Assembly: GCA_032821775.1 (NCBI GenBank)
Contig: JAVLRN010000010.1
Location: 1,984,001-2,048,000 of the forward strand
Length of the DNA stretch: 64,000 nt
Reading direction: 5' to 3'
From: Sanguinoderma infundibulare
Lineage: Eukaryota > Basidiomycota > Agaricomycetes > Polyporales > Polyporaceae
Shown here: positions 6,543 to 64,000 of the stretch, in pieces
Layout of the letters: the number at the start of each line of letters is the position of its first letter
Position numbering within the stretch: position 1 is the first letter of the stretch
Program-made: the position numbers and the translations under genes
Notes under the pieces: generated by a model
Told to the model about the DNA's origin: nothing
Seen by the model: the letters and a program-made list of their open reading frames with translations, nothing else
Databases searched by the model: none

Positions 6543-9207
6543 CTACTCGCTGTCATCGTGACTTCCCTCGACCTCTCCTTCAGCGTCCCGCCGTCTCCAG
6601 CACGTATCGATCCCACGCCGCTCTCCTCCGTGAGGTGGCCCGACAGGCAAGGACGATTCAGAAGATGGGGATGTGGTGTCATGGATGACCTCGACACGCG
6701 CGAGGTAGTAGCCCAAGCCCGCATCTTCGAGGTCGAGGTTGACTGTGTACGTCCGGGCTTCTCCCAGGCTCAGCGTGACGCTCTTGTTCCCGAGGCTGCC
6801 TTGCCACCCCCGTGCCCCCAACGCGAAATCGGCCCAAGAAACGGCTGGGGCGTTGGCATCCGCCCGACGGATGTCCCTGGGAGGGATAGGAAGACGCCTC
6901 GGCGACATCCGCACATGGGCGTCGATGGTGAGCTGCTGATTAACCTGTCGACGTCCGATGCGCGTATGACTGTTCGGCCGGAAGTTTTCGAGGGTATGCT
7001 GGTACTCTATGGTGATGGTGTGCTCGTGGTTGGACAGTGCAAGCCGGTGAGTTCGAGGGTGCTCCCGATTCGGACCTCGAAGCTCGGCGGTGTACCCTCC
7101 TGCATGTAGAGCGACGTGGGTTTCCTTCGTGAGCATCAAGTGGATTGTTTCGTGTATCAGGTAGTGAATATCCTCCAACTCCGAATCGGCGCGGCCCGGG
7201 TTGGAGATGTATACCGTCTTGAGCTCTATACTCGACCGACAGCGCTCGATCGCGGCCGGCGTCAGGGGGAAAAGCTCGACGGCCGCAGTCGAGGACTGTC
7301 GATTCGGGGACTTGATGTCCACATATCCGCAGCGCAAGTACTCGATGCCCGACTGCGACAGTGTGTAGCACACCCGTCCCAGAAGCTGTCCCGGGAAGGC
7401 CTTACATTCGCACGCAAGGATCGCCAAGTACCATTCGAGGGGTGGGGGATCATCCGAGTGTTCCCTTGACTCGGCGGGAAAGTAATGGGAGAGGGGTATG
7501 ACAGGTAGCTGAGTGCGGATACCGTGGGGAGAAGAATTGTAGTCAGTGGGGGGAAAGTGGAAGGGCTGGAGTCGCCGAGAGACTTCATCACGCGGAACCG
7601 CTTCAAACGCGTCGCCGCCACCCCGGAAGTGGTCGGGGGAGTTGTCGAGAAAGGACTCGCTATTATGCCAAATCAGGAACATCACCCGCAGAGACTTGAG
7701 CACAGACGGAGTCGGATCGTCGAGTATCTCGGGATGCCGGTAAACCTTCAAGCCCAAGTCGCTGTTTCCCCAGACGAACAAGGTCTGGTCCGGGATGCGT
7801 CGCATGATCTCCTCCTGCAATCGTCGGAATGCGCGCGCTCCCTCGCCGTAGAGCGTAGCCATGTTGATATCGAAGATCCCCAGCAGCGAGTACGCCCGGT
7901 CCTCCACCCTCGTCGTCCGTCGCCCTGACGCCCACGAGAGTCGCTGGGCGACGCTGAACTCGTCGAGTGACTGCATGTGCAGCAGCGCTCTATAAGCGAC
8001 GCCGGTGATGTCCTCGACAAGGACGTGAAGAGTATGTTTTGACCCGATGGGAGTCCAGTCCCGGCAGAGAAACACGACATCCAAAGGGGCGATGAGCTCC
8101 TGGAGCGTCCATCCGCGCGTGAACCACCTGCTCCGGTGGAAGCTAGAGCCGTTCGTCCAAGGGTTTTCTTCCGCATCCACATCCGCAAGGAAGGCATAGC
8201 AAACCTTCGCTCGCCGGTACCAGAGGTACATCGAGTTGATCGCCTCGGAGAGCTCTGAGCTGCTAGATTTGTCGATGCAGGACGAGTCGATCCAGATCCA
8301 CTCGTAACCGTTCTCTCGCGCGACTCTGCACGCCTCCCGGATCTTCGAGTCCTTGACGAGTGTCGGGTGATCCCAGAGAGAATTTCCAGGTTCTTGGTTC
8401 GGACGGTGCACCCGGGGCGGCCATGTCTGTGGCAGCGGCAGGGGAGGTGTATGGACTTGCGGGATGGGGAACGCCTGGGGCGGGCGCTATGATATTTATC
8501 AGTGTTAGATCTATTTCAAATTCGACACATGCGAGCACAAAGCCAAGTGTTCGCACCTGGTACATTGGTGGTGTATTGGCAACGAGAGGAGGGGGGCGGT
8601 TCGGGAGTGACAGCATTTGCGACGACGTCAGGGGAGAACTCGGCTCGGGCCCAGAGATGGCAGACTTTGGTGTTGTAGAGCGGCTCGTACTGGGTTTCTT
8701 GACCGCACGCCGGAGAGCAGAGCGAAACCGAGCCGTGGATACCTGGAGCGGACTGTGCCTCTGCTGGTCGTTGACAGGCGAAGACGTTGGAGGTATCGCC
8801 GGCTGCCGCGGTGCCGCAGAATCATCTTGTGCGGTCGGCCTGGGCGGAGCTGCTGCTGCGACTGAGCGCCAAGGCGGTACGGTAGCGAGGTCGACTGAGG
8901 GCTCGGGGTTGGAGGAGTGGATCGTGGGATTCACTGGATGAGGAGTGTGGCCAGGTGGCGTGGTAGCTGAATGTGTGGATAAAGGCTTGGTGGAAAGGTC
9001 TAGCCCTGAGCGATGGTCGTCCGTAGAAAGGGATGTCTGATGAAAGCCACGATAGTCGTACAATGCCTGGATTTTCTTGAGTTGCTCGTAGGTCTGTTCG
9101 CCACCCTCGGCTTCGGAACGCCACGTATGTGACAGTATGGCATATTCAACCTCGTCCAGGTCGAGGAACTCCTTAAACTGGCCCGTCCGTGTGTTGAGGA
9201 GGCGCAT
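6543..9207 (-). CDS. HET-domain protein 1 (heterokaryon incompatibility type), about 864 aa
   Basis: Two exons on the minus strand, 9207-8557 and 8486-6543, joined by a 70-bp GT-AG intron in phase 0. The N-terminus MRLLNTRTGQFKEF leads to HET box 1 (YAILSHTW). Box 2 (WIDSSCIDKSSSSELSEAI) and box 3 (SRWFTRGWTLQELIAP) follow after a linker of about 190 residues rich in Pro, Ser and Thr. SLLGIFDINM...YGEG and RRLQEEIMRRIPDQ close the domain. HET domains act in fungal non-self recognition and can trigger cell death when two incompatible nuclei meet; the partner here is unknown. After the HET domain lies about 200 residues of variable sequence, then one copy of a C-terminal module shared with the other two HET genes (about 7130-6650), then an acidic tail. 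It is a tandem paralogue of the next gene, in the same direction. Confidence 0.9.
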
Positions 9208-16382: not shown

Positions 16383-18182
16383 TTAGAAACGCGTCGCGAC
16401 GACGAGCCCGATGCCCATCCCCGCGCAGAACGCGCTGACGAGCGCGAGCCCCAGACCAAACGTGTACCCGACGCCGCGGTTTACTCGGTTCTCGCCACGC
16501 TTCTCCTTGGCAGCACGCGGGGAGGACGGTCTCCGCCTGGGCACATCCTCACCGGACTTCCACCCGAGCGAACGCGCGACGCGCGTCCGCAGCGCACCCA
16601 GCAGCGAGAACGAGAACACGACGAGCGACGGCAGATGGAGCGGGTCCAAGGCCGCGTTGCACGAAGAGGGGAGAAGGCCCCGGCTGTCTGAATCGGCACT
16701 TGCAGCTGTGGCCGAGAACGAAGACGACCGCTGCTGGCCGGTCAATCGCGTGGACCGCGGGCTCAGGCGGCGCGGAGGCTCAGAGCGCCGCCGTCGCCGC
16801 AGGTGGAGCGCGACCTCTTGTGAGAGCGAGTCGTTCAGCTCCCATTGCGCCTCCCACGCCTGCTTGTCAAACCATCCCTCATTCGACTTCAGTTTTGAGT
16901 TACGCTCTGGGTTGACATCGCTGCCCGCGTCAGACACGCCACTGCGCCGATGCGGCATGGGCGGTCTCTGGTGGATGGACGTCTCGGCACTCCAGTGCAC
17001 GCGCTCGACGGCGCGCTCAACCTCGCGCCAGCGGAGGAAGCGAGCAGCAGCTTCGGAGCGGAGGGTTGCGAGAGTGGTCGGGGTGCGGAACAACCCTGCG
17101 CGAAGGGCGGCGATGGAGGACGGACGAAAGGCCGAGAGATGCGATGATGAGGCTCTGCGCGCCCGTTCGTGTGGGGAAGAGGCTATGTAGAACGGGGATG
17201 ATGGGGGGAGAAGGACGATGGGAATGTGCGTGCTGAGGGATTCTATGATGGATTTCTCGACCGGTGAAAGTGCAGCTGGAGGGTACGCGTCAATGACGCA
17301 TTGCTGCGGACAGGAGTGGGACTTACAAGGCGCAGCGAGCATGACCAGAGCAGTGTACAGCGGGGAACAAGACGACGAGAGTAGGTGGGCGAGTGTGCCG
17401 CTAGGTGGGTGATCGTGGTTCAATATGTTGAGTACTTCTCGGAACGGATAGTGGATCACTGGGAGGACGCGTTCCACAATGCTCTGCGCCTAAACTGAGT
17501 CAACACCTGGAGCGCGAGACGAGGCCGGACAACGTACCTCTGAATTGCTATCGTACGGCGGAAGTTCGACAATCTCGACATTGCGCGCAGGCTCAATTCG
17601 CTCGAGGCCGTGCCTGTCCCTGTGCTCGACCCAATCGGTGGAGACGTGCAAGACGGCCTTCCGCTTTCCGCGCGCACTAACGCTCTCATAATGGACCTCC
17701 TCCCAAAGGCCGACCTCGACAACATCCTCGTTATCATCGACAAGTTGCGAAGCGACGGCACTCATGTCCAAGCCTCTGGGTCCGAGCAGCAAGAGCCGGA
17801 CATCGCCCAGGGTCTGGCCGTAAGCGGTGGAATGTCGAGAAGGAGAAGGGAGCATGAGGGAAGGGATGACAAGACCGCTGGTCGAGTCGCCGAGCTCGTC
17901 TTCAGGTTCTGAATGGTGGTCTGGATGAGGCGGCGAGGTCGGTCCAGAGGAGAAGAGGAAGGAGGAGCCAACTGAAGGGAAGGACGAGACGGAGTCGCCA
18001 GAGGGGCTGCCAGGCTCTGACTGGAACGCGCTGTGGGGGCTAGAGGGCCGGAGGGGAAAATGGGCGTGGCGATGGTCGTCCGGCGTGTATGCGGGCTCGG
18101 GGTGGAGGGAGACGTCGAGATGGCTGAGCCCGCGGAGGGTGGACACGCTGGTGCTCGATTCGTGTTCGTGGAGGGAGTCCAT
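16383..18182 (-). CDS. Unidentified protein with a C-terminal membrane anchor, 583 aa
   Basis: Exons 18182-17538 and 17489-16383 are joined by a 48-bp intron in phase 0 and give 583 residues starting MDSLHEHESSTSVSTLRG. The first 120 residues are Ser/Pro-rich and probably disordered. A folded part then begins with DVRLLLLGPRG, and hydrophobic strands such as TALVMLAAP and IPIVLLPPS follow; the pattern recalls an alpha/beta nucleotide-binding fold, but no Walker motif is clear. The last 25 residues (GLGLALVSAFCAGMGIGLVV, then ATRF) form one strong transmembrane helix with a very short tail, as in tail-anchored proteins inserted after translation. Topology would place most of the protein in the cytosol. 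Family and target membrane are unknown. It diverges from PIF1 over a shared upstream region. Confidence 0.75.
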
Positions 18183-18840
18183 GGTGAGCAATGTTCTGCA
18201 AACGTAAGGTGAGCGGCTGTGTGTGTTTCGATGGGAGGACTGATTGGGGCCAGCGATTGCGCTGGTATGAGGTGCAGCCTCGCAGTCGCGCGTAGACTCG
18301 CGCTTGACAGTCGAGAGAGTACTCTGGGAGACAGGACACCCCAATGCTCGCGAATGCTTGTTCGTTGTCTGCGCTACGTTCACAAGACGCCGCATACGAC
18401 AGCAACACAAGAGTCATCGGGAATGGAGCTGCTCACCTGCCAGTGTGTCCGCGGGGCAATATGGGTCGGATTCGACGAGATGCTCACGAATACGTCTCCG
18501 AGCGACGTCCTCGACGGTGTCGTACGACGTGCGGTGGATGCGGTTAGACTGGGCTGGGATGGTGGTGGTGAGGAGAGGAAAGTGTGAGGGAGAGGGCGTG
18601 CAGATCGCTCGATTGGGATAGGAGCGACGCTCGCCCGACAGAGCACGCCACTGATGCCATTCCATCTTATCAGATAAGATTTAACCGACTCGCACAGCAC
18701 GTGACAAGACGCGACAGGCACAAGCGCGCGAACGCGACTCGTTTGTTGGTGGCTTGATCCTCGTCTTGTACCCCAACGACGTCCTCCCCCCTCTCTTCTC
18801 ACGCGCGGGGCTGGCTCACCACTAGGAACAGAGGGGAGAG
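18183..18840. promoter_or_regulatory. Shared upstream region of two divergent genes
   Basis: These 658 bp separate the start codons of the tail-anchored gene (minus) and PIF1 (plus). They must hold both promoters. No convincing TATA element or known operator is evident. Confidence 0.5.
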
Positions 18841-21410: not shown

Positions 21411-22847
21411 ATGACGAAACACAGCAAGAACAACACCGCGTCCTCGATCTTCTCCTACGCCGAGTACAAGAAGCTCGACTACGGCACGAAGCGCGTACGT
21501 GACCCTTGCTATCGTATACGCTGCTCATGGACGTGCGAGCCGCGCAGCAACGTCTAGGGAACGAGTCCATGCGCCGCTTCGACGCGTGCGCACTGTGCCT
21601 ACAGCGCGCGCGGGACCCCGTCGCGTGCCAAAAGGGGCACTTGTTCTGCAGGGAGTGTGCGCTGACAGACTTGGGTGCGTTTTGATGGTGTTTGCTTTTG
21701 GGAGAGCGGTGCCCCGTGGTGTTGGGGTTGGGGGAGGATGGTGGAGCTGACGAAGCGGGCCACGCACGTTCTAGTGACGCAAATTAACGATATCAAGCGA
21801 CAGAAGGTCCGCCTGGAAGCGATGAAGAAGGAGGCGGAGGAGGAGAGGCAACGCGCAAAGGAGGCCGCGAGGGAGCGTGTGTTGCACGAGTTCGAGAAGG
21901 GGCAGCTCGGGCTGGCGGCGACGTCGATCATCTCGACGTCCTCTGGGCAGGTGGACTCTTCAGAAGGTGAGTCCCTTTCCCTACGAGGGGCTCCTATGAC
22001 GCATGCTGGGATGATGCTGAAGGCATGGCATGTCTCAGCGCGAGGGACGAAACGCAAGTTCGAGTTTGACACGAGCGCGGTCGAGACGCTCTCGCGCGAG
22101 GCCGAGGAGGCGGCCCTCCGCGAGATCGAGCGCGAGCAGACGGAGGCGTTGAAGAGCAAGCTGCCGGACTTCTGGCTGCCGTCGCTCACGCCAACGTACA
22201 CGTCCAGCGGCCCGCCCACATCGCTCTCGGACGTGAAGCTGCAGACGACGTGCCACGGGGGGAATCCTGTGCACTCGCTCACGTACGTTTCTCTGGTTCG
22301 TTTGGTGGACAATTTAGGCTAATGGAGAGCGCAGGCGGAAGAACATGATCTCGGTGAAGTGGTCCTTCGACAAGTCGTCAAGCGCCATATCCGCAAAGTC
22401 CGCCGAATCCACGCCCGCGACGGAGGGTGGGGAGACCCCCGATCCGAAGGCGAAGGAGCCCCGCGACGACGAACGGCCGCCAATATGTCCGTCGTGCAAG
22501 AAGCAGCTGTCCAACAACACACTCATACACCGTGCGTGTCCGCTGTATCGGTATCAGCTTCCGGACATCGCGTTTTCGAGCTGACGGGTGCCTGCGGATA
22601 GTTATGAAACCTTGCGGGCACGTTACGTGCAAGACGTGCACGGACACGCTCGTGACGCCCGCGAAGCAGTGCATCGTGTGTGATGCGAAGCTGGGGGAGA
22701 AGGACGTTATCGAGCTCGCGCGGGAAGGTATGGACGATTGGGTCGCTGTCTATTGGTCGCTGATCGAGAGCGTGTTTCGCAGGCACGGGGTATGCGGCGG
22801 GCGGTCTTGCGGAGACGTCGAAGCGGGGTGTCGCATTTCAAGGCTAA
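21411..22847 (+). CDS. NOSIP: NOSIP-type zinc-finger/RING protein, 316 aa, intact parent copy
   Basis: Exons 21411-21494, 21548-21674, 21775-21966, 22039-22282, 22335-22531, 22602-22727 and 22783-22847 sum to 951 nt in frame. Exon 1 gives the family start MTKHSKNNTASSIFSYAEYK. Exon 2 carries the N-terminal NOSIP zinc finger (C-x2-C, GHLFCRECAL). Exon 3 is a charged coiled-coil helix (KKEAEEERQRAKEAARE). Exons 5-6 form the C-terminal RING/U-box-like domain (CPSCKKQL, PCGHVTCKTC, CIVCDAKL), and the end is GVAFQG. In animals NOSIP is an E3 ubiquitin ligase that also associates with the spliceosome; a conserved nuclear role is likely but inferred. A second copy lacking exon 1 lies 5 kb downstream, fused to a HET gene. 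Confidence 0.93.
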
Positions 22848-22958
22848 GGGTGGTTCGTGGGGTTTCATGGAGCGTCGCAATTCATTTCTGCTGCGCGACG
22901 TACCGCCCATTCTTTGGCATGAACAATGTTGTTTGACCAACTGCAGAGGTAATCCCCA

Positions 22959-23276: not shown

Positions 23277-26200
23277 ATGAGGTTAATCAACACAGAAACA
23301 GGGGAATTCGAAGAGTTCCCTAATCTCTCCTCAGCGCCCCCGTACGCCATTCTATCACACACCTGGGGGAGCAATGAGCAGACATACCAAGAGGTCAGGA
23401 AGATTCAAGAGCGATGCCGCCGTCTTTCTCGTGTCTCTGTCTCTGCTGCCGCCCTGGCGCCTCCAATCAACAAACCGTTGCAATCTCCGTCAGGCGGTGA
23501 GCTTCGCTTTGACCCACGTCGTGACCAGACCCTGATCTCGTGCTTGGACTTCCAGAGCTGTGGCCGACGACCCACCGAGACCATGCCGTCCCATTCCCTG
23601 ATCTCTCTAGCCCCCCGCACCACGACACCACTCTTCCTTCTCGCGATCCCCCGCAGCCCTCGCAGACCTCAGATCGCGACGCCGACGATGTTCCACCCAC
23701 CTGCGTCGCTCTGGTAGGCGGCCGTGTCCTCTCCATCTGGGATGAGGACTCTGGGCTCTCGGAGAAGATCCGGAAGGCATGCGAGATGGCGCGCCGCGAC
23801 GGCTACCGCTACCTTTGGGCAGACTCCTCCTGCATCGACAAGACGAGCAGCTCGGAGCTGTCGGAGGCGATCAACTCAATGTACGATTGGTATCGCGGCG
23901 CTCAGGTCTGCTATGCTTTCCTCGCGGACGTGCCGTCGGATGACGAACTGGCGGCCCCTGACTCCAAGTTTCGGAAGAGCCGATGGTTCGGTCGCGGGTG
24001 GACGTTGCAAGAACTCGTCGCGCCACGATGCGTCGTTTTCTTCTCGCAGGATTGGAAGCGCCTGCAGACCAAGGATGGATTGGCCGGTCTCATTGGCGAG
24101 ATCACAGACATTGATCGCGACATCTTGACCCACAAGAAGTCCGTTGATGGGGCTAGCGTTGCGGATCGGATGCTGTGGGCTGCGGAGCGCGAGACGACAC
24201 GGATCGAGGACCGAGCGTATTCGCTGCTGGGAATCTTCGGGATCACGATGTACACACTCTACGGAGAGGGCGAGCAGGCGTTCAGAAGGCTGCAGGAGGA
24301 GATTCTGAGGCGTATCCCTGACCAGAGCATCTTTCTAGGGGGGTATCTGACCTTGGAGTCCCCCGCGAGCCTGATACTCCGGCAAGCGGGAAGAGTCTAT
24401 CTCTGGCGTTTACGGCGTTCGTTTCTCGCCTCGTCTCCCAGCGGATTCGAACACATCCGCGACATGGTGGCATCCCCAATCGTTCAAGCATCCCGTGCGA
24501 CCATCCAATCTCTGCAGCTCCCAGCCATGGAATACACGTTCACCCCACATGGCATCCGTACACAAGTTCGCCTCTTACCCCTCCGACCATTTCCACAGAT
24601 CCGTCTTACAGCAGAGGAGAAGGGCGAATGGTACCTCCTCATCCTAGGATGTACGTACGACGAGCATCCAGAACGAATTTTCTGCCGACTCTGCAATGTA
24701 GTCCCTTCCGAAACGTCCGGTTTGGACTTCCTTCACCCTGCATGGATTCATCTTCCGATCCGGTCAGATCCTGTCGATGTCTTCGTCCTTTCCCTGAGCG
24801 ATTTCCAGGCTTACGACGCAGAACTTCGGACCCGGACCGTCTATCTTCCCCACCTGACACGAACCACTACTACACGTTGGACGACGGGCTCTGATCTCCC
24901 TGTCACCCTGACATTCCCGGATTGGGCCAAGGCTGCTATGGAAAGACGCGGATACAGTGTACGAGGATCCACCATTCAACAAGATCACCCTGATTCCCTT
25001 TCGGTCACGCTGTCCAACCAGTCACTGACGATCCACATTGAATTCCGACACACGACATTCGTAGATAGACGTGACGATCCCGGGTGGCTCATAGTCAAAG
25101 CCCGTATCTGGGCCTTGCCACCGCATGACTCTAAGGTCCAGGATGGGGGCGATGTGCCACGGCAGAATGTCACACCATATGCTTCCCCCAATGTCTGGAG
25201 CGTTGATCGGAAGAAGTCTTTGGATCTGACCCCCAGACAAGTGGCACTGGTCACAGCAACCGAAGACACAGTAACACTCCGGCTCTGGTTCGATTGTGTA
25301 ACAAACGATCATTATGGCCTCGGCGTGGAGATCTTCGAGAACGCTGGTGGCCCAGTCCCGTCCGATAACTCCGAGCCCTATGGCGAAGGTCTTCGCTTGT
25401 TACACACGAGCATCAACTTCACCTTGCTAGGGTCCGTTCAACGCGCGTTGCTTGCTCAAGGTTATACTGCTCGCGATCTCCGACCCGGAGGGTTAGACGC
25501 ACATGGCCGCGATACTCATTCCCTCTCCATTGCTCACTCCGACTTCACCATCTCCGTCAGATACTTCCACAAACTCGGGGAGCGAAGGTCCTGGCAAGAG
25601 TTGGAAGTTGTGGCATGGGTCAGCTTGGAGGCCTTGGAGGGTTATCAAGATGGTCCGTATGCAGTGGGGTGGGAGGATTCGAACGGATGGTCCTGGCACC
25701 TCGGCGAGGAGGAAGTTGCGCTCACCACTCCATCCGGAGATCCACTAACGCTATGCTTGGGTTTGGACCTTGCGTGGCAGTCGGAGTATGATCTGCGCAT
25801 TGCCATTTCCCCCGAGAGACGTCCCTCTCAACCCAAACCTACGGAATTGCCCCTCAAGGGACTCCACAAAAGCCCGGTCCGCTTGACGCTCCCAGGGCAC
25901 GTCAAACGTGCTTTGCAGGCGCAAGGATATGAAGTCGACTTCCAGGACCCAAATCAGGACGCCGAACATCGTTGCCTTACCCTCTCCAGTGCTCACTTCG
26001 TCATTACCATCACGTACTGGCAGAAGTTGACCAACATCAACGACGAAGATGGGGACGACGAAGATGGGGACGACGAAGATGGGGACGACGAAGATGGGGA
26101 CGATGAAGATGGAGACGACGAAGATCGGGATGACGAAGATCGGGACGACGAAGATCGGGACGACGAAGATTGGGACGACGAAGATCGGGACTGTGCAGAT

Positions 26201-27771
26201 GTGGACGACGAAGATGGGGGGGACAGTCGTCAACGTCTAACTTTCCGAGCATGCATCGAGCTGAAACCCTTCCTTTCGAGCGCTATCAGCTCCGTAGCTG
26301 ACCCACGGGACAATTCCTACGTTTTGAAGTGGGAGGATGAGACCTGGTGGAAAGGGCATCTCAAGAAGAAGAAAGTGAGGTTCACGCCAACTACGGGAGA
26401 GGAGCTGGTCGTGGTGCTCGGCTTTGACCTCATGTGGTACTCCGAGTACTCTCTGGTTGTCGAGGTCGTGCATAACCGTCCCACCCATCCCCCACATCCG
26501 CAACGTCTAGGGAACGAGTCGATGCACCGCTTCGACGCGTGCGCACGGTGCCTGCAGCGCGCGCGGGACCCCGTCGCGTGCCAAAAGGGGCATTTGTTCT
26601 GCAGGGAGTGTGCGCTGACGGACTTGGGTGCGTTTTCATGCCGTTTGCTCTGGGGAGTTGGGATGGAGGAAGATGGTGGAGCTGACGAAATGGGCGACGC
26701 ACATTCTAGTCACGCAAATTAACGATATCGAGCAGCAGAAGGTCCGCCTGGAAGCGATGAAGAAGGAGGCGGAGGAGGAGAGGCAACGTGCAAAGGAGGC
26801 CGCGAGGGAGCGTGTGTTGCGCGAGTTCGAGAAGGGGCAGCTCGGGCTGGCGGCGACGTCGATCGTCTCGACGTCCTCTGGGCAGGTGAACTCTTCAGAA
26901 GGTACGTTCCTTTCCCTACCACGGGCTCCCATAACGCATGGTGGGATGATGCTGAAGGCATGTCTCAGCGCGAGGGACGAAACGTAAGTTGGACTTCGAC
27001 ACGAGCGCGGTTGAGACGCTCTCGCGCGAGGCCGAGGAGGCGGCACTCCGCCAGATCGAGCGCAAGCAAGCGGAGGCCTTGAAGAGCAAGCTGCTGGACT
27101 TCTGGCTGCCGTCGCTCACGCCAACGTACACGTCCAGCGGCCCGCCCACGTCGCTCTCGGATGTGAAGCTGCAGACAACGTGCCATGGTGGGAATCCTGT
27201 GCATCCGCTCACGTACGTTTCTCTGGTTCGTCTGGTGGACGGGTCAGGCTGATGGAGTGTGCAGTCGGAAGAACCTGATCTCGGTCAAGTGGTCCCACGA
27301 CAATTCGTCAAGCGCGATCTCCGCAAAGTCTGGCGAGTCTACGCCAGCGACGGAGGGTGATGAGACCCTCGATCCGAAGGCCAACGCGCCCCGCGCCGAC
27401 GAACGGCCACCAATATGCCCCTCGTGCAAGAAGCAGCTGTCCGACAACATGCTCATGCATCGTGAGTGTCTGCGGTATCAGGTTTCGAACCTTGCGTTTT
27501 CGAGCTGACGGGTGCCTGTGGGTAGTCATGAAGCCGTGCGGGCACGTTACGTGCAAGACGTGCACGGACACGCTCGTGACACCCGCAGAGCAGTGCATCG
27601 TGTGCGATGCGAAGCTGGGGGAGGAGGACGTCATCGAGCTTACGCGGGAAGGTATGGACGGTTGCGCTGCGGTCGATTGGTCGCTGATCGAGGGCGTGTT
27701 TTGTAGGCACGGGATATGCGGCGGGAGGTCTAGCGGAGACGTCGAAGCGGGGCGTCGCATTCCAAAGCTAA
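23277..27771 (+). CDS. HET-domain protein 3 fused in frame to a NOSIP copy (predicted chimera, 1371 aa)
   Basis: Exons 23277-23496, 23556-26627, 26710-26901, 26969-27212, 27265-27461, 27526-27651 and 27707-27771 total 4116 nt in frame. The start MRLINTETGEFEEF leads to HET box 1 (YAILSHTW). After a Pro/Ser linker containing a 59-bp intron come LWADSSCIDKTSSSELSEA and RWFGRGWTLQELVAP. Three tandem copies of the C-terminal module follow (about 24893-25360, 25411-25820, 25870-26480); the third is interrupted by an acidic repeat. At 26501 the sequence switches, in phase, to NOSIP exon 2. All later NOSIP exons have the parental lengths (127, 192, 244, 197, 126, 65 nt), GT-AG sites and zinc ligands, ending GVAFQS. 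If intron 26628-26709 were not spliced, the protein would stop at 26722 after a truncated finger. The fusion is inferred from sequence; a separate downstream start is the main alternative. Confidence 0.8.
26041..26220 (+). repeat. 15-bp in-frame minisatellite, 12 units, encoding Asp/Glu-rich DDEDG/R
   Basis: Units of the type CGACGAAGATGGGGA repeat 12 times with drift towards CGGGA in later units. Each unit is five codons, so copy-number change keeps frame. It is inserted in a loop of the third C-terminal module of HET protein 3. Confidence 0.97.
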
Positions 27772-27882
27772 GGGTGGTTCATGGGGTTTCATGGGGCGTC
27801 ACAATTCATTCCTGCTGTGCGACGTACCGCCCATTCTTTGACATGAACAATGTTGTTTGACCGGCTTCAGATGTAATCCCCA
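26501..27882 (+). repeat. Segmental duplication of NOSIP exons 2-7 plus 3' flank (parent 21548-22958)
   Basis: The copy begins at CAACGTCTAGGG, the first bases of NOSIP exon 2, and ends at AATCCCCA beyond the stop codon. Parent and copy align throughout. Coding exons have identical lengths; introns differ by small indels (100 vs 82, 72 vs 67, 70 vs 64 bp). Coding changes include several amino-acid substitutions but no stop or frameshift. Confidence 0.93.
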
Positions 27883-28841
27883 GTGAAATCCCCGTCTATT
27901 CACAGCGATTGCCAGTCATTCTGGGCAATTGCCATCATTTTCCATCTGTTTCCAGCCATTCTCGGCCCTCGATAAAGCTATTTTTGTCTCGAAATTGTCA
28001 GTCTAGTTGTAGTTTCTGCCATTGGTCTATAACAACTTCGTCCGAGTTATACAACTATGCCGGGCGCTTCGTGCAACCCAACCTCGAAACTGCAACTGGG
28101 CCCACTTGTTATACAGCACTTCCACTCGTTCGCCCGTCTCGCCGCATCCGGTGGCGAGCCCACCGATGACATCACTGACCTGACGGATGTGCTCTTAAGG
28201 CTCGGACGACCGCCTTTCCTTCCCTGCCTCTGTCTCTTTCAACTTCCCCCCACCATCTACCCGGTCGATGGCCTCTCAGCTTCACTATATCTGCACATAC
28301 ATCCCACCCAGACATCAACCTGTAACTCTTTATCGCACACGTCTCGGGGAACAGGGGTCTTTCCTTTGCAAGGTACATTTTCAACTCGGAAATGTTCGTC
28401 AGTAGGAGCACCAGACGTGGGTGCATGACCTCCCTGATGCGCAAGGCACAACCCGTCTATGGAGCCCTCTGCATGTCCACTCTCAAGGTGCGTAGCCATT
28501 CACGGAACGCGATACAGTCCCATCGCCCGCGATATGTAGGTGTACGAGATGAACGTGAACCACGACAATCGTGACGTAACTACACTCCCTTCCTGTACGG
28601 AAAGTTAGTACTGGTCATAATCTATTCGAATACGAAGGGTCTACGCACCCATCACCGTCTCCAATTCCAACGAATACTGCCTCGCCGCATTGCTAAATCT
28701 CTCTAGCTGCTACGCGGCCTCAAATGCAGGATGCGAATGCTAAGGTTGTGCTACTAACCTTGTTCATGGGCCTAACGCCAGGTAGCGTAGGCTGACAGCA
28801 CTTAGGCATCGACTCCGGAGGACTGGAGCCGTCTACACACT
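27883..28841. other. No gene seen
   Basis: Short reading frames on both strands (up to about 120 codons) lack recognisable motifs or consistent splicing. This is the start of the repeat-rich half of the window. Confidence 0.4.
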
Positions 28842-31866: not shown

Positions 31867-32520
31867 ATGAGCTGTGCTCGTCAGAATTTGGCCATCATCA
31901 TGAACCTCTGTCACGGCCGTAGCCTCTGGAAACAACTCAAGATGAAGGGCCCCATCACTGACAACCAGCATCTCCAGGCGTTGTTCCTCGGGATCATCGA
32001 TGCAGTGAGAGACCTGCACAGGGTCGGGATCTACGACTGCAATCTCAAGCCCTAGAACATCCTGCTCGGCAGCAAAGGCGCCACGGAGGTCTTCCATGCA
32101 GACTTCGGGCTCGCCAGTCGGAGCAAGTGCTACAGCGCCAGGTGTGGTACACGGGCGTACATGTCACCCAGACAGTCTCTTCCCGATCCTAGTTCCCATC
32201 TGCAGGCCCACCAGCACTCTCGCAGAGCTTCTCGACATGAGGGCCAGCCAGCGCTGGAGTTCAGCAGACAGCCACGCCCTGAGCTCGGTGGACAGCGACA
32301 TCTGGGCCCTCGGCATCATCCTCCTCCACCTGGTTAGCGGCACTGTTCCTTGGCCAAGCGCATCCCTGACTGAGCCCAACTACGCCGCATTTGTTCGCAA
32401 TCCAAGGTACCTCCTTGAGGTCCATTCAATCTCGCTGGGCCTGAATGAAATCATCCGGGGAATGCTCCACGTGAACCCTCGTATCCGGATGAGTCTGTCG
32501 GACGTGCAGCAGAACATCTC
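31867..32520 (+). pseudogene. Ran1-like Ser/Thr kinase relic, catalytically dead
   Basis: The kinase-like text starts LCHGRSLWKQLKMKG and continues to DFGLASRS, then in another frame SDIWALGIILLHLVSGTVPW and NEIIRGMLHVNPRIRMSL. This matches the fungal Ran1/Pat1-type kinase group. The catalytic loop is ruined: where the right-hand copy has YHRDLKPEN this one reads YDCNLKP followed by TAG (32053-32055). HRD has become DCN and the frame is stopped. The glycine loop is absent. It is a broken copy of the gene at 63358-64000. Confidence 0.85.
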
Positions 32521-33552
32521 AGAGCTCGACATGTTTTTCTGTGACGTAAAACCCAGTTGGCTCGACAATACCAGTATCTCAGCTGCTGTGCCCTGGCATT
32601 TCCGATGTCCTGCAGATGCGTCTGCCTGCCCTTCAAGCCCTCCTTCTACATGGGGGGCCATCCCCACATGCGCACCTGTGCACGCTCGCCCACAGAGATG
32701 GCAATGGCTTTCTCGGTGGTGCACGAGGGCTAGATGAAGTGCAGCTTTGCGATCTGGTGAGCCTTGTCGACCGTGCTGGCGGGCCCCGACCCTGTTCAAG
32801 ACGCTCTGCTTGAAATCCATGTCGCTGCCAGCACTGAAGACTTACTTGATATCACAGTTGGCAGACACCAAATTGATGCCAATGCCGCCGCACTTGATAC
32901 TACATCCATCTCAGCAGCACGTCTGATGACTCCATGCAAATGCCACTCAAAACTCACCTGATGACACTCTGTCACCTCCCGGCTCATCCTGCCATTGAAC
33001 CTCAGGCTCCTGATCCCATGCCGCAAGAAAATCTGTTCGCGCAGGCAAAGCATCGATGGCCCTGTCACAGCATGCTGTTGGAAGGACTCGGTTAGCATAA
33101 GTAATAACCGAACAATGAGATCGAATGCCGAGGGTAAACTGCTCAAGCGCCCAAATGTTGCGAGGATGAGTGGCCGGATTTGGAAATACCACGTGCTTAG
33201 CCGGAGGGCCGAGATGGGCCAGCTTCTGAAATAAGCACATGGAATGCCCAAAGATTGCAAGGATGAGTGGCTGGATTTGGCATTGGCACCCGCTCAGCCT
33301 CTCTCGTGATGGTGACCGTGCCGCTCGGGGGCTCCTATCATACGCCGTGGAGAGATACCTAGAATCAAGAAAACCCCTCAAACTGTTCAGGAAACCATGG
33401 TCTGAGGTCGCTCACTTCCTCTCTATTTTACTGGTTGCGCGAGCTGCATTCCTTGGCAACCTGTGTACTTTGATATTCTGTCGTTAACATCACAATTACT
33501 TGTGGACCAAAGAACTCACTTTGTTCAGAATTGGTAAGAGCACTGCTTGATT
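31867..33552 (+). repeat. Left copy of a kinase-bearing repeat (inverted relative to 62170-64000)
   Basis: The sequence aligns with the reverse complement of the right end of the window in several blocks: the kinase part (31890-32500), GGCGGGCCCCGACCCTG (about 32779-32795), and about 33075-33552 (GCTGTTGGAAGGACTCG to GATTCCTATT). The arms are clearly diverged and have length differences between the blocks. The block near 33150-33290 also has an internal tandem similarity (AGGATGAGTGGC at two places). Confidence 0.85.
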
Positions 33553-33620
33553 CCTATTGCCGGAGGAGTGTACGGGAATCGACCAGCATGTAGCACGACA
33601 TGATCCCTCCACACCCCGCC

Positions 33621-47366: not shown

Positions 47367-48461
47367 TGTCATACGCGGTGTATGACTGATCTGTTGGACA
47401 GGTACAGGCTGGCAGGAGAGCCGGTTCAGCACCGGAACTGCCTTGGCTCTGAAGAGCCTATCTTTAGGTTCAGAGAGCTGCCGGGGCGAAGGGAGGACAG
47501 GGAGTCAGTCCAGGAAGGACCTGGCAAGGAAGGCGAGAGCTCAAGGTGCAGGATGCGTGCCAGGCGCAACACGATCTAGCATGGACTCTACATGTACTCT
47601 CTATTCGTTTGCTATGGTGCACAGATGATTTGGTTCTTGGCACATGACCTGAAAAGGGCTGACTAAGGTTCAAGCATGATGACTGATACATATTACTGTG
47701 CACATGCTCAGTCAGCGCAGGTTTTTCTTTTTGTATGATGGGACTTTATTGTTATTTGGGAATGACTATTATACTCTATCCTTTTATCCTTTGAACATTT
47801 CCACACTACAAACTTTGACCTATTATTCCTCATACTTAATTGTTTGAGGATAACTTTTACCCTAGCCTATGGTACTTGAGAATATTCTCAGATATATAGC
47901 ACTATGATTGTGCATATTTCATGGTATGGATATGTTATTCCCATGCTGATTGGTGAACTATTGTTTATTCCTTTATTGTCCATAGGATTATTTCTCACAG
48001 CCTGTATATACTCATTGTCCAAGGACAATGAGCACTTTAACAGTATTGTGCTATTTTTAGATACAGTATTGTGTCTATAGCCTATTGTCCAGACTTAGCA
48101 CAATAGCACAATAGCCTGTTTATGTGTATTTGGTTCTAGGTAGCTACTAGTATATAAGGACCTCAGCTGGGTCCCCCAAAAATGACAATTTCAGTTCTCC
48201 TCAGACTGAAGTCCCACCTCTGACAGGTGTTTCTGGTGCAACTAAGCACAATAGCCTTCTCTTCTGAGAGTTAGAAAGCCTCTGACAGGCTTGCTCTCTA
48301 TTATCCCCCCCCTTCCTTACCCCATCCTTACCTATCATCCCCCATACCTCTGATCACTATCACGAACACCTGGAGGAATATCTGACCTAAAGTCTGGTCC
48401 GATTACTTCAGGCACATATTATCTAGTAGTAGTTTCTATTAGGTAGTTTGTGCGTATCTCA
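47367..48461 (+). repeat. 5' LTR
   Basis: Starts TGTCATACGCGG, followed at once by its partial inverse GTATGAC, and ends TATCTCA. A TATA element (TATATAAGG) is at 48151. Short open frames inside the LTR are identical in both copies and are not genes. Confidence 0.95.
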
Positions 48462-57397: not shown

Positions 57398-58036
57398 ATG
57401 CGTTACTCCATCACGTTTGCCCCTCAAACCTGCATCATGGTCCATGCCTTCAGTCCAAACACAGACCTTAGGCCCTTCATTGCGCGACGAATCCCTCTCT
57501 ATCCCTCCAGCCGCTTCGCCATGCCGGCAAACATGGTCTGCACCACTCACAGTGAGTCCACCAGCCTGTGGACCCTCTTCCCCTTCGGCCCAGACGCCAA
57601 CACCACCCTCCACTTCAACTCCATCTTTTACCTATCTAACTATCGCCACTTTCATATCGACATCCCTGCCCTCTGCGTCTTCAATGACCCCGCCGACATC
57701 ATCTTTCAACATGGCGAGCGGTACTTCGTCGTCCCTGGATGGATCTTTGAGGACGGGCAGACCATTGGAGATGGTGACTCCTTGAATGGTAGCGGTGAAG
57801 GTGCCTCCATGACCTCGTCTGGTCCCATCCTCTCCTCCGCCGACTTCTGCCTGCCAGTGCGCAGCTTCAATGCGGACGACCTCCCACTCGAGCTCAGACT
57901 CCTTCGCTTCCTCCCTCTCCAACTGGCTCAGTGGCTGGTTAGGAAGCGCTATGAGTACGTGGTCCTGTTCTTCTCAGCCTTCGCAACGGGGACGTTGCAC
58001 TTCAAGTGTGGGGCGGTTGTCATATGCGGTGTATGA
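57398..58036 (+). CDS. Extra ORF in the position of env, function unknown, 212 aa
   Basis: ATG 57398 opens a GC-rich frame that runs through the polypurine tract and ends at TGA 58034-58036 inside the 3' LTR. Distinct parts are FHFNSIFYLSNYRHFHIDI-like aromatic sequence, DPADIIFQHGERYFVVPGW and, near the end, a hydrophobic segment (YVVLFFSAFATGTLHF). There is no clear signal peptide, no dibasic cleavage site and no heptad repeats, so an envelope role is not supported. It could be captured host sequence. Coding is inferred from composition and frame length alone. Confidence 0.5.
   Translation: MRYSITFAPQTCIMVHAFSPNTDLRPFIARRIPLYPSSRFAMPANMVCTTHSESTSLWTLFPFGPDANTTLHFNSIFYLSNYRHFHIDIPALCVFNDPADIIFQHGERYFVVPGWIFEDGQTIGDGDSLNGSGEGASMTSSGPILSSADFCLPVRSFNADDLPLELRLLRFLPLQLAQWLVRKRYEYVVLFFSAFATGTLHFKCGAVVICGV
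58003..58017 (+). other. 3' polypurine-tract-like site
   Basis: CAAGTGTGGGGCGGT directly precedes the 3' LTR start TGTCATATG. It is the expected site for plus-strand priming. Confidence 0.7.
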
Positions 58037-59112
58037 CTGATCTGTTGGACAGGTACAGGCTGGCAGGAGAGCCGGTTCAGCACCGGAACTGCCTTGGCTC
58101 TGAAGAGCCTATCTTTAGGTTCAGAGAGCTGCCGGGGCGAAGGGAGGACAGGGAGTCAGTCCAGGAAGGACCTGGCAAGGAAGGCGAGAGCTCAAGGCGC
58201 AGGATGCGTGCCAGGCGCAACACGATCTAGCATGGACTCTACATGTACTCTCTATTCGTTTGCTATGGTGCACAGATGATTTGGTTCTTGGCACATGACC
58301 TGAAAAGGGCTGACTAAGGTTCAAGCATGATGACTGATACATATTACTGTGCACATGCTCAGTCAGCGCAGGTTTTTCTTTTTGTATGATGGGACTTTAT
58401 TGTTATTTGGGAATGACTATTATACTCTATCCTTTTATCCTTTGAACATTTCCACACTACAAACTTTGACCTATTATTCCTCATACTTAATTGTTTGAGG
58501 ATAACTTTTACCCTAGCCTATGGTACTTGAGAATATTCTCAGATATATAGCACTATGATTGTGCATATTTCATGGTATGGATATGTTATTCCCATGCTGA
58601 TTGGTGAACTATTGTTTATTCCTTTATTGTCCATAGGATTATTTCTCACAGCCTGTATATACTCATTGTCCAAGGACAATGAGCACTTTAACAGTATTGT
58701 GCTATTTTTAGATACAGTATTGTGTCTATAGCCTATTGTCCAGACTTAGCACAATAGCACAATAGCCTGTTTATGTGTATTTGGTTCTAGGTAGCTACTA
58801 GTATATAAGGACCTCAGCTGGGTCCCCCAAAAATGACAATTTCAGTTCTCCTCAGACTGAAGTCCCACCTCTGACAGGTGTTTCTGGTGCAACTAAGCAC
58901 AATAGCCTTCTCTTCTGAGAGTTAGAAAGCCTCTGACAGGCTTGCTCTCTATTATCCCCCCCCTTCCTTACCCCATCCTTACCTATCATCCCCCATACCT
59001 CTGATCACTATCACGAACACCTGGAGGAATATCTGACCTAAAGTCTGGTCCGATTACTTCAGGCACATATTATCTAGTAGTAGTTTCTATTAGGTAGTTT
59101 GTGCGTATCTCA
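58018..59112 (+). repeat. 3' LTR
   Basis: It has the same length as the 5' LTR (1095 bp). I found two base differences: the seventh base (C at 47373, T at 58024) and one in AAGG(T/C)GCAGG (47546, 58197). It ends TATCTCA at 59112. Confidence 0.95.
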
Positions 59113-61718: not shown

Positions 61719-62169
61719 TTGCATCCGAAAATGGTTTTGAGTCAATTGTAATAGTCCTGTCGTAGTCTACGTTTGCTGGTCTCGTAATGCGCTTCGTATC
61801 AGTAGAACACGGGGTGCATTCAGGCGCGCACCAGAGCCCGAGCGATAGACACACGATCGGCGCAGATGAAATTTTGTGAATGTGGGATACATTGATGTGC
61901 AACCCTCTGATAGAGGTCGTCCATTCCGCACTTTTCCCTGGCACAGAGGAATCCAAGTCTGTCAAAGCTGAATTGTGCAGGCTAAACGTATACGGTGCGC
62001 ATCGAATGAGCATGCGGAGCGGTGAACTGATCACGCACCTGAAAGGAAACACACGTTCTTCAAGTCGCGCTCAGACACACCCCGAATGACCAGGAACATG
62101 TTCGGCTCGCTCATCATCATGCTCCGTGCTGGTCTAGCGGATGCTTGACTGCCATACACTACTCTGGAA
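61719..62169. other. Intergenic, nothing firm
   Basis: A minus-strand frame at 61702-62052 (116 codons) overlaps the end of protein C and has no recognisable domain. I see no other feature. Confidence 0.35.
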
Positions 62170-64000
62170 ATAGGAATCAAGCGGTGCTCTTACAAATCCT
62201 GAACAAAGTGAGAGCTTTGGTCCTCAAGTAACTATGATGTTAACGACTGAATATAAAAGTACACAGGTCGCCAAAGCACGCAGCTCGCGCAACCAGTAAA
62301 ATAGAGAGGGAGTGAGCCACCTCAGCCTGTGATTTCCTAAAGGGTTTGAGAGGTTTTCTTGATTCTCTGGATCTCTCCGCGGCGTACCATAGGAACCCCG
62401 GAGCGGGATGGTCACCATCGGAAGAGAGGCTGAGCAGGTGCCATTGCCAAATCTGGCCACTCATTCTCACAATGTTCAGGCACTCCATGTGCTTATTTGG
62501 GAAGCTGGACCATCTCGGCTGAGCATGTGGTATTTCCAAATCTGGCCACTCATCCTCACAAAATTTGGATGCTCGAGCAGTTTACGTTCGGCGTTCGATT
62601 TCAGTCTTCCGTTATCACTTATGCTTATCGAGTCCTTCCAACAGCAAGCCATGACAGAAGTCCTATCGGATTTTTTAAGGAAGGTGATTAAGGTACGGAT
62701 GGGAGCGGGGATGGCGGTTGTGACAAAGGTTCATCAGGATTTGCGCAAACTAAGAATGCTGGTGGTGACATGAATTTCAAGCGATGCGTCTTGAGCAGGG
62801 TCGGGGCCCGCCATTTTCCAGTAGCCGGTATCCTTTCCAAAGGATAGGGAAAAGCAACATATCAACATTGTGTAGAATATCGAGGCAAGAAAACATTGGG
62901 TTAGCATTTTATGAGCATGTTCCTGGCCAGCAACTCGGGCTGTGCTTGCCATGACGCGGTCTTACATGTGCGATCTTGTCCCATCAGCTGAAAAGCCGGA
63001 GACGGTCACTCGCGGCGCATGCGAAGAGGGGCTGGAGCCTAGGAGAGGTACCTAGGATGATGTTCGCCAGGAATAGGGCGCTCGCGGGATGCATCCACGA
63101 TCGCATTCTGCAACTGCAATACTTATGAGAGAAGAAGCCGGTAACAATTGCACCCGCACATGGACATGTCTGCGACGCGACCAAAAGGATGAAAGCGCGA
63201 CCCAGATGTGTACATGAAGAAGAGGACTTGGGAGGAAAGAAGGGGAACGGGCAGTGGGAAGCGCAGGGGATGGAGGTGTGTCATAATGGAGGTGTGTCGT
63301 AGAGTGGAGTAAAGCACGAATGAGATACTGACATCATCGAGCCAACTGGCTGTTACATCACAGGAAAACGGGTGGAACTCTCTTCCACCGCACGTCTGAC
63401 AGACTCATCCGGATACGAGGGTTCACGTGGAGCATGCCCCGGATGATTTCATTCAGGCCCAGCGAGATCGAATGGACCTCAAGGAGGTACCTTGGATTGC
63501 GAACAAACGCAGCGTAGTTGGGCTCGGTCAGGGATGCGCTCGGCCAAGGAACAGTGCTGCTGACCAGGTGGAGGAGGATGATGCCAAGGGCCCAGATGTC
63601 GCTGTCCACCGAGCTCGGGGTGTGGCTGTCCGCCAAACTCCAGTGCTGGCTGGCCCTCATGTCAAGAAGCTCTGCGAGAGTGCTGGTGGGCCTGCAGATG
63701 GGAACTAGGATCGGGAAGAGACTGTCCAGGTGACATGTACGCTCGTGTACCATGCCTGGCGCTGTAGCACTTGCTCCGACTGGCAAGCCCGAAGTCTGCA
63801 TGGAAGACCTCCATGGCACCTTCACTGCTAAGCAGGATGTTCTCAGGCTTGAGATCACGGTGGTAGATGCCAGCCCTGTGCAGGTCTCTCACTGCGTCAA
63901 CGATCCCGAGAAACAACGCCTCGAGATGCTGGTCGTCAGTGATGGGGCCTTTCATCTTGAGTTGTTTCCAGAGGCTACGGCCGTGACAGAGGTCCATGAC
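62170..64000 (-). repeat. Right copy of the kinase-bearing repeat, inverted relative to 31867-33552
   Basis: Read on the minus strand it follows the same order as the left copy: kinase, GGCGGGCCCCGACCCTG (62794-62810), then the block ending at ATTCCTATTTCC near 62170. It contains extra sequence (about 62830-63340) not matched on the left. It runs off the window end, so its outer border is unknown. Confidence 0.85.
63358..64000 (-). CDS. Ran1-like Ser/Thr kinase, partial, better-preserved copy
   Basis: Entering from beyond the window end, the minus strand encodes LCHGRSLWKQLKMKGPITD, the catalytic loop YHRDLKPENILL, DFGLASRS and GTRAYMSP, then (in another frame) SDIWALGIILLHLVSSTVPW and IIRGMLHVNPRIRMSL. 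HRD, K, N and DFG are all present, unlike the copy at 31867. The frame change between YMSP and the F-helix could be a 49-bp intron (GTACATG...CTGCAG), but splicing it removes the YMSP segment, so activity is uncertain. Ran1/Pat1-type kinases control the switch from growth to meiosis in yeast; whether this one has such a role is unknown. The glycine loop lies outside the window. Confidence 0.65.

Follow-up and report, generated by a model that had tools for sequence, protein, structure and literature searches.

Integrated decoys of plant NLRs work as sensors that trigger cell death. For fungi, a study of Sordariales NLRs reports a CHK-2 kinase as a putative integrated decoy (PMC12258605); in both systems, as in the gene described here, a domain of a host gene is joined to an immune-type protein. 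A further point of comparison is the BH protein of Podospora anserina het-B, in which, according to PMC10890737, a lectin-fold domain sets specificity; the protein has an N-terminal HET domain, as here, and its C-terminal domain is perhaps of similar fold. On the NOSIP side, PMC4278855 describes the mammalian protein as an E3 ligase whose U-box is split, and a NOSIP chain is present in PDB entries 8c6j and 9fmd. The acquisition of sensor domains by immune-type receptors is usually inferred long after the event. In the present case a single genome holds the donor and the recipient, the joins, and sister genes that stayed unaltered, so that the birth of a fusion becomes datable and testable.

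Comparison with known HET and NOSIP proteins

The locus lies in a 64-kb stretch of contig C10 (the window) of a genome of 48.9 Mb in 87 contigs. The chimeric HET–NOSIP gene found there, with an intact frame and intact splice signals, is genuine. In HET domain and tail modules it resembles Polyporales HET proteins annotated in databases with HET plus PF26640; 36 aligned relatives showed 34–46% identity, the strongest named matches coming mostly from Ganoderma. Unlike the fusion, none of 120 such relatives listed out of 602 carried a NOSIP, RING, or U-box domain in precomputed Pfam lists. Another extra domain was seen in 3 of the 120 listed (F-box-like before HET, RNase H after HET, and NACHT-like before HET), which may be real fusions or gene-model joins. 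P0225 from Trametes versicolor (873 aa) has an F-box-like domain at residues 53–118, then HET at 214–324, and is possibly another link between HET and ubiquitin; P0203 from Trametes pubescens (978 aa) has an RNase H domain (802–945) behind HET, possibly another C-terminal capture. Either could instead be a gene-model join. A HET protein with an added domain is of a known kind; NOSIP as the partner is new.

The copy shares exons 2–7 and both fingers with ordinary NOSIP but is without the N-terminal motif and is attached to HET. Its integrated domain is derived from a host gene, with 88.5% DNA identity to native NOSIP. The fusion differs from the NLR integrated decoys in having no nucleotide-binding module, neither NACHT nor NB-ARC appearing among Pfam matches up to E 1, and in that a decoy role is here putative.

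The initial annotation knew of no HET-RING/U-box fusion of this kind. In one word-based search, residues 1040–1371 were compared with a database of 5.8 billion proteins, under the length limits set for a 1371-aa protein. No HET–NOSIP protein was found among the 7989 scored candidates, which were those sharing most words with the query, so that rarer relatives may be missed. The idea of a widespread HET–NOSIP architecture was dropped, as only 2 of the 7989 scored candidates matched, an 835-aa protein of Athelia and a 765-aa protein of Termitomyces, and neither has a HET match. Aimed searches of open PubMed Central papers yielded no HET–NOSIP protein and no paper on NOSIP in heterokaryon incompatibility, on a HET-RING finger gene fusion in fungi, or on a fungal chimeric gene with a HET domain; for the HET domain together with E3 ubiquitin ligase, the one paper retrieved was a review of plant TIR signalling.

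Structure of the HET–NOSIP gene

The features of the native NOSIP gene and of the fusion gene are as follows (window coordinates).

21411..22847, +, native intact NOSIP, 7 exons, 344 aa
23277..23496, +, HET exon 1, start codon at 23277; start and donor identical in sister genes L043 and L044
23497..23555, +, HET intron 1 (GTGAGC..TTCCAG), model; acceptor where ~170 bp of the sister genes are missing, reading frame preserved
23556..26500, +, HET exon 2, HET part: remaining HET domain, a central region, and three modules of predicted beta-sandwich fold
24905..25357, +, tail module 1, approximate limits, beta-sandwich by prediction
25388..25843, +, tail module 2, modelled alone, mean pLDDT 90.7
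25865..26482, +, tail module 3, bounds approximate, split by an acidic 15-bp tandem repeat
26500..26503, +, HET/NOSIP join, GCA common to both parents
26501..26627, +, NOSIP exon 2 copy, 127 bp, finger ligands kept
26710..26901, +, NOSIP exon 3 copy, 192 bp
26969..27212, +, NOSIP exon 4 copy, 244 bp
27265..27461, +, NOSIP exon 5 copy, 197 bp
27526..27651, +, NOSIP exon 6 copy, 126 bp, C-terminal RING-like ligands kept
27707..27771, +, NOSIP exon 7 copy with stop TAA, 66 bp counting one base past the stop
27772..27882, +, copied NOSIP 3' flank, DNA match to parent

Native NOSIP passed the zf-NOSIP profile (PF15906) with 46.4 bits against the Pfam cut-off of 30. Its best match was from Dichomitus squalens (88%), followed by Trametes and other polypores, at 82–87% for most of these next matches, which makes the host of the genome probably a polypore. 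The gene adjoins the HET gene starting at 23277, and its site looks ancestral, because a nearby minus-strand frame (17490–18413) resembles the part of a Termitomyces protein that follows NOSIP (54% over 137 residues).

The HET domain of the fusion scored 57.9 bits (PF06985, Pfam cut-off 22.5), and the HET part of exon 2 shares 79% protein identity with L043. When the predicted fold of tail module 2 was compared with known structures, a weak resemblance to the actinoporin/fruit-body-lectin fold was seen, below the level of trust; fold comparison of the whole 981-residue HET part gave no trustworthy match. Two local differences from the sister genes were noted. About 170 bp of both are absent at 23541–23546, where a new intron acceptor preserves the frame, and an acidic (DEDGD) 15-bp tandem repeat, present in neither sister gene, is expanded in module 3 at about 26040–26215.

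Most structural claims of the initial annotation stood. It had placed an in-phase change from HET to NOSIP exons 2–7 at 26501 and predicted a 1371-aa product; the two frames agree at the join with no stop, and the spliced model gives the same 1371 codons, the join falling at residue 1056 and being resolved only to about 3 bp (GCA in both parents). The intact parent was also found as described at 21411–22847; it has 7 exons and 344 aa. Over 21547–22958 versus 26500–27882 parent and copy match at 88.5% of DNA positions, far beyond chance. The copy exons have exactly the lengths of parent exons 2–7 (127, 192, 244, 197, 126, and 66), with GT donors and AG acceptors present, and 78 differences at 949 exon sites include no indel and no stop; 0 of 10 splice sites were lost. 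The drift of introns and residues that had been noticed shows in three intron indels and 30 differences in 316 residues (286 identical). Preservation of the zinc ligands likewise held, with no finger ligand changed and H108R the only change at a Cys or His of the parent among the 30 differences.

Preservation is less complete elsewhere in the copy. NOSIP exon 1, with its conserved N-terminal motif, is missing; at 18 of its 28 positions all of 114 orthologues have the identical residue. Five changes fall at residues found in 118 to 120 of 120 orthologues; L44, P177, and N276 are present in 120/120, and L44R lies in the CxxC of the first finger. The fusion scored 23.2 bits with zf-NOSIP (PF15906), below the cut-off of 30, over profile positions 31–72 of 75; the tail gives weak finger matches in Pfam, and HET alone passes its cut-off. 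Because exon 1 is gone and residues invariant in 120 relatives are changed, normal NOSIP function of the copy is unlikely.

Sister HET genes and additional NOSIP copies

The unit of NOSIP plus HET was found twice more on C10 (L043 and L044), with HET starts about 81 and 54 kb from that of the window gene. Both HET frames are intact (1146 codons) and have an ordinary 83-residue tail where the window gene has NOSIP; a fusion common to the sister HET genes was therefore rejected. Among the sisters, all with open frames, N/S is 3.0 to 4.05 in the tail modules versus 1.22 in the HET core. This part of C10, at about 1.67–2.23 Mb and including the window, is a dense HET cluster holding 32 of the 150 scored matches (251 candidates in the genome).

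Besides parent and fusion copy, the genome holds three NOSIP copies and two exon-4 fragments. All three copies are broken, with a stop in 3/3, a frameshift in 2/3, and truncation in 2/3: that of L043 has two stops in the parental frame and four frameshifts; that of L044 carries a single stop and lacks its 5' part; and L045, with a single stop and a single frameshift, is missing its 3' part. Apart from the native gene, no unbroken set of exons 2–7 other than the fusion tail occurs among the NOSIP matches recovered. An exon-4 fragment (L046:2413–2547 and 6598–6733) lies inside a 4.2-kb tandem unit, whose minus-strand frames we take to be phosphotransferase-like.

Origin of the inserted segment

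Comparison with the sister HET genes showed that the last 83 codons of the window HET gene and the DNA following them, about 390 bp, had been replaced. The replacement (26501–28529) is a patchwork of at least four pieces: the NOSIP copy, part of a dispersed repeat, and two fragments of local origin. Downstream of the NOSIP copy the order is as follows.

27879..28268, no strand assigned, dispersed-repeat fragment, whole-length matches on C2, C3, and C4, partial on C11
28269..28382, no strand assigned, fragment, 90% to C10:951236–951349
28385..28529, no strand assigned, fragment, 77% to C10:2052702–2052845
28530..28823, no strand assigned, original HET downstream sequence resumes, 90% to L050, beside the L043 HET gene

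The plain segmental duplication originally proposed is not what is seen: a patchwork replaced the HET tail. The two joins examined have three shared bases (GCA, HET/NOSIP) and four (CCCA, NOSIP/repeat), which would fit microhomology-driven repair with template switching. By such break repair, or an equivalent patchwork insertion, one HET gene of the three sisters may have lost its 3' end and received in its place NOSIP exons 2–7 with their 3' flank, a piece of repeat, and the two fragments of local origin. The join would have hit the start of exon 2 in frame by luck, frame agreement having by itself a one-in-three chance. The HET promoter would then drive one transcript for a 1371-aa protein, predicted to comprise the HET domain and recognition-type tail modules followed by a NOSIP tail lacking its N-terminal motif. 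If functional at all, that tail would more probably change HET binding than serve as a normal ubiquitin ligase.

Selection and age of the copy

Pairwise comparison of copy and parent, which the initial annotation had suggested as a check, gave dS 0.235, dN 0.046, and a low dN/dS of 0.195, but divergence preceding the insertion leaves selection after fusion unproven. This ratio was dropped as proof of selection on the fused gene because the copy branch is too long. Changes were polarised with broken NOSIP copies and set against a neutral expectation of 2.35–3.0 replacement changes per silent change. With L043, 28 silent changes and 18 replacements fall on the copy branch (p 1e-5 to 3e-7) and 15 and 12 on the parent branch (p 0.005 to 0.0007), both well short of the neutral number of replacements; the broken L043 copy itself, with 11 silent changes, 19 replacements, and 3 changes that create stops, is compatible with neutrality. 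With L044, the copy has 23 silent and 16 replacement changes over the common part; with L045, which covers 21548–22089 only, it has 3 and 6, near neutral. Exons 2–3 versus 4–7 of the copy (2 silent/4 replacement versus 23/14) do not differ significantly (p 0.22).

The divergence of HET since its split from the sisters, 0.063 silent changes per site, was taken as the upper age limit of the insertion. The parent NOSIP branch (0.066) matches this rate (p 0.88), and the copy branch, at 0.123, exceeds it (p 0.006). About half or more of the silent divergence of the copy would therefore be older than the insertion, presumably accumulated as a working NOSIP. More than about 2 to 10 unconstrained silent changes, depending on the ratio, are rejected at 5%, and the age limit allows about 14. 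Because the data allow fewer such changes than the age limit does, the fusion is either far younger than this limit or has had a partly constrained tail.

A point against full NOSIP constraint is that columns with at least 90% conservation among the 120 orthologues hold 8 of the 19 residues derived in the copy, versus 2 of the 11 derived in the parent (p 0.25); 8/19 about equals the neutral share of conserved columns, 149/316. Site patterns among the NOSIP copies were mosaic: with L044 as outgroup, 14 sites group copy with L043, 10 parent with L043, and 7 parent with copy, and with L045 the counts are 4, 8, and 2. A single tree ordering the copies was dropped for this reason, and the pattern suggests past gene conversion, which would muddle dating.

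Interpretation of the fusion

We favour, with moderate confidence, a genuine chimera, known from a single genome and born by patchwork replacement of a HET tail, most likely young and still being tested by selection. Of the two readings initially offered, a new recognition-to-ubiquitin pathway or a fresh chimera under test by selection, the second fits best. The first, in which the HET protein would steer ubiquitin transfer through an active NOSIP finger, is very unlikely and gained no support: both sets of zinc ligands are kept and mammalian NOSIP is described as a ligase, but the conserved exon-1 motif is lost, zf-NOSIP falls short of its cut-off, and L44R and other changes strike residues invariant among orthologues. 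Most improbable of all is that the join at 26501 was made in assembly, because the copy, which matches the parent at 88.5% and L043 at 87.6%, is distinct from both; no other NOSIP copy found has its sequence, and past the insert the HET downstream DNA follows as expected.

What the tail does, if the gene is expressed, admits two further readings. A HET protein with lectin-like modules may have taken up the neighbouring NOSIP as tethered bait and so become a non-NLR protein with an integrated decoy, the tail being kept so that HET senses agents acting on NOSIP, ubiquitin, or the splicing machinery and then triggers cell death. If true, a decoy would have been caught soon after birth, with the intact gene that it mimics alongside and sister HET genes without the tail nearby. 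The survival of frame and splice signals in this copy while other NOSIP copies decayed, the rejection of a long neutral phase, the fast divergence of tail modules among open-frame sisters, the adjacency of native NOSIP and HET, and the CHK-2 precedent all point this way. We nevertheless regard the idea as tentative and rather unlikely, since the fusion is known from one genome only, its changes at conserved residues follow a neutral-like pattern, a nucleotide-binding module is absent, and the NOSIP copies of both sister units have decayed. That neutral-like pattern would also suit a HET gene, working or dead, whose NOSIP tail is removed by splicing, left untranslated, or carried as silent ballast that has yet to decay; the insertion may be very recent, and zero to few unconstrained silent changes fit the data. 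As no stop separates HET from the tail, however, any transcript left unspliced at the join and reaching 27771 encodes it, and we consider a mere passenger distinctly unlikely.

Other elements in the window

Two direct copies of 1095 bp, at 47367–48461 and 58018–59112, are 99.8% identical. They have TG..CA ends, CTCC lies at both outer flanks, and they are probably the long terminal repeats of an 11.7-kb retrotransposon that inserted recently. An inverted pair of about 680 bp (31898–32581 and 63321–63999) is 90% identical, and a second inverted pair (33062–33575 and 62152–62657) is nested within it.
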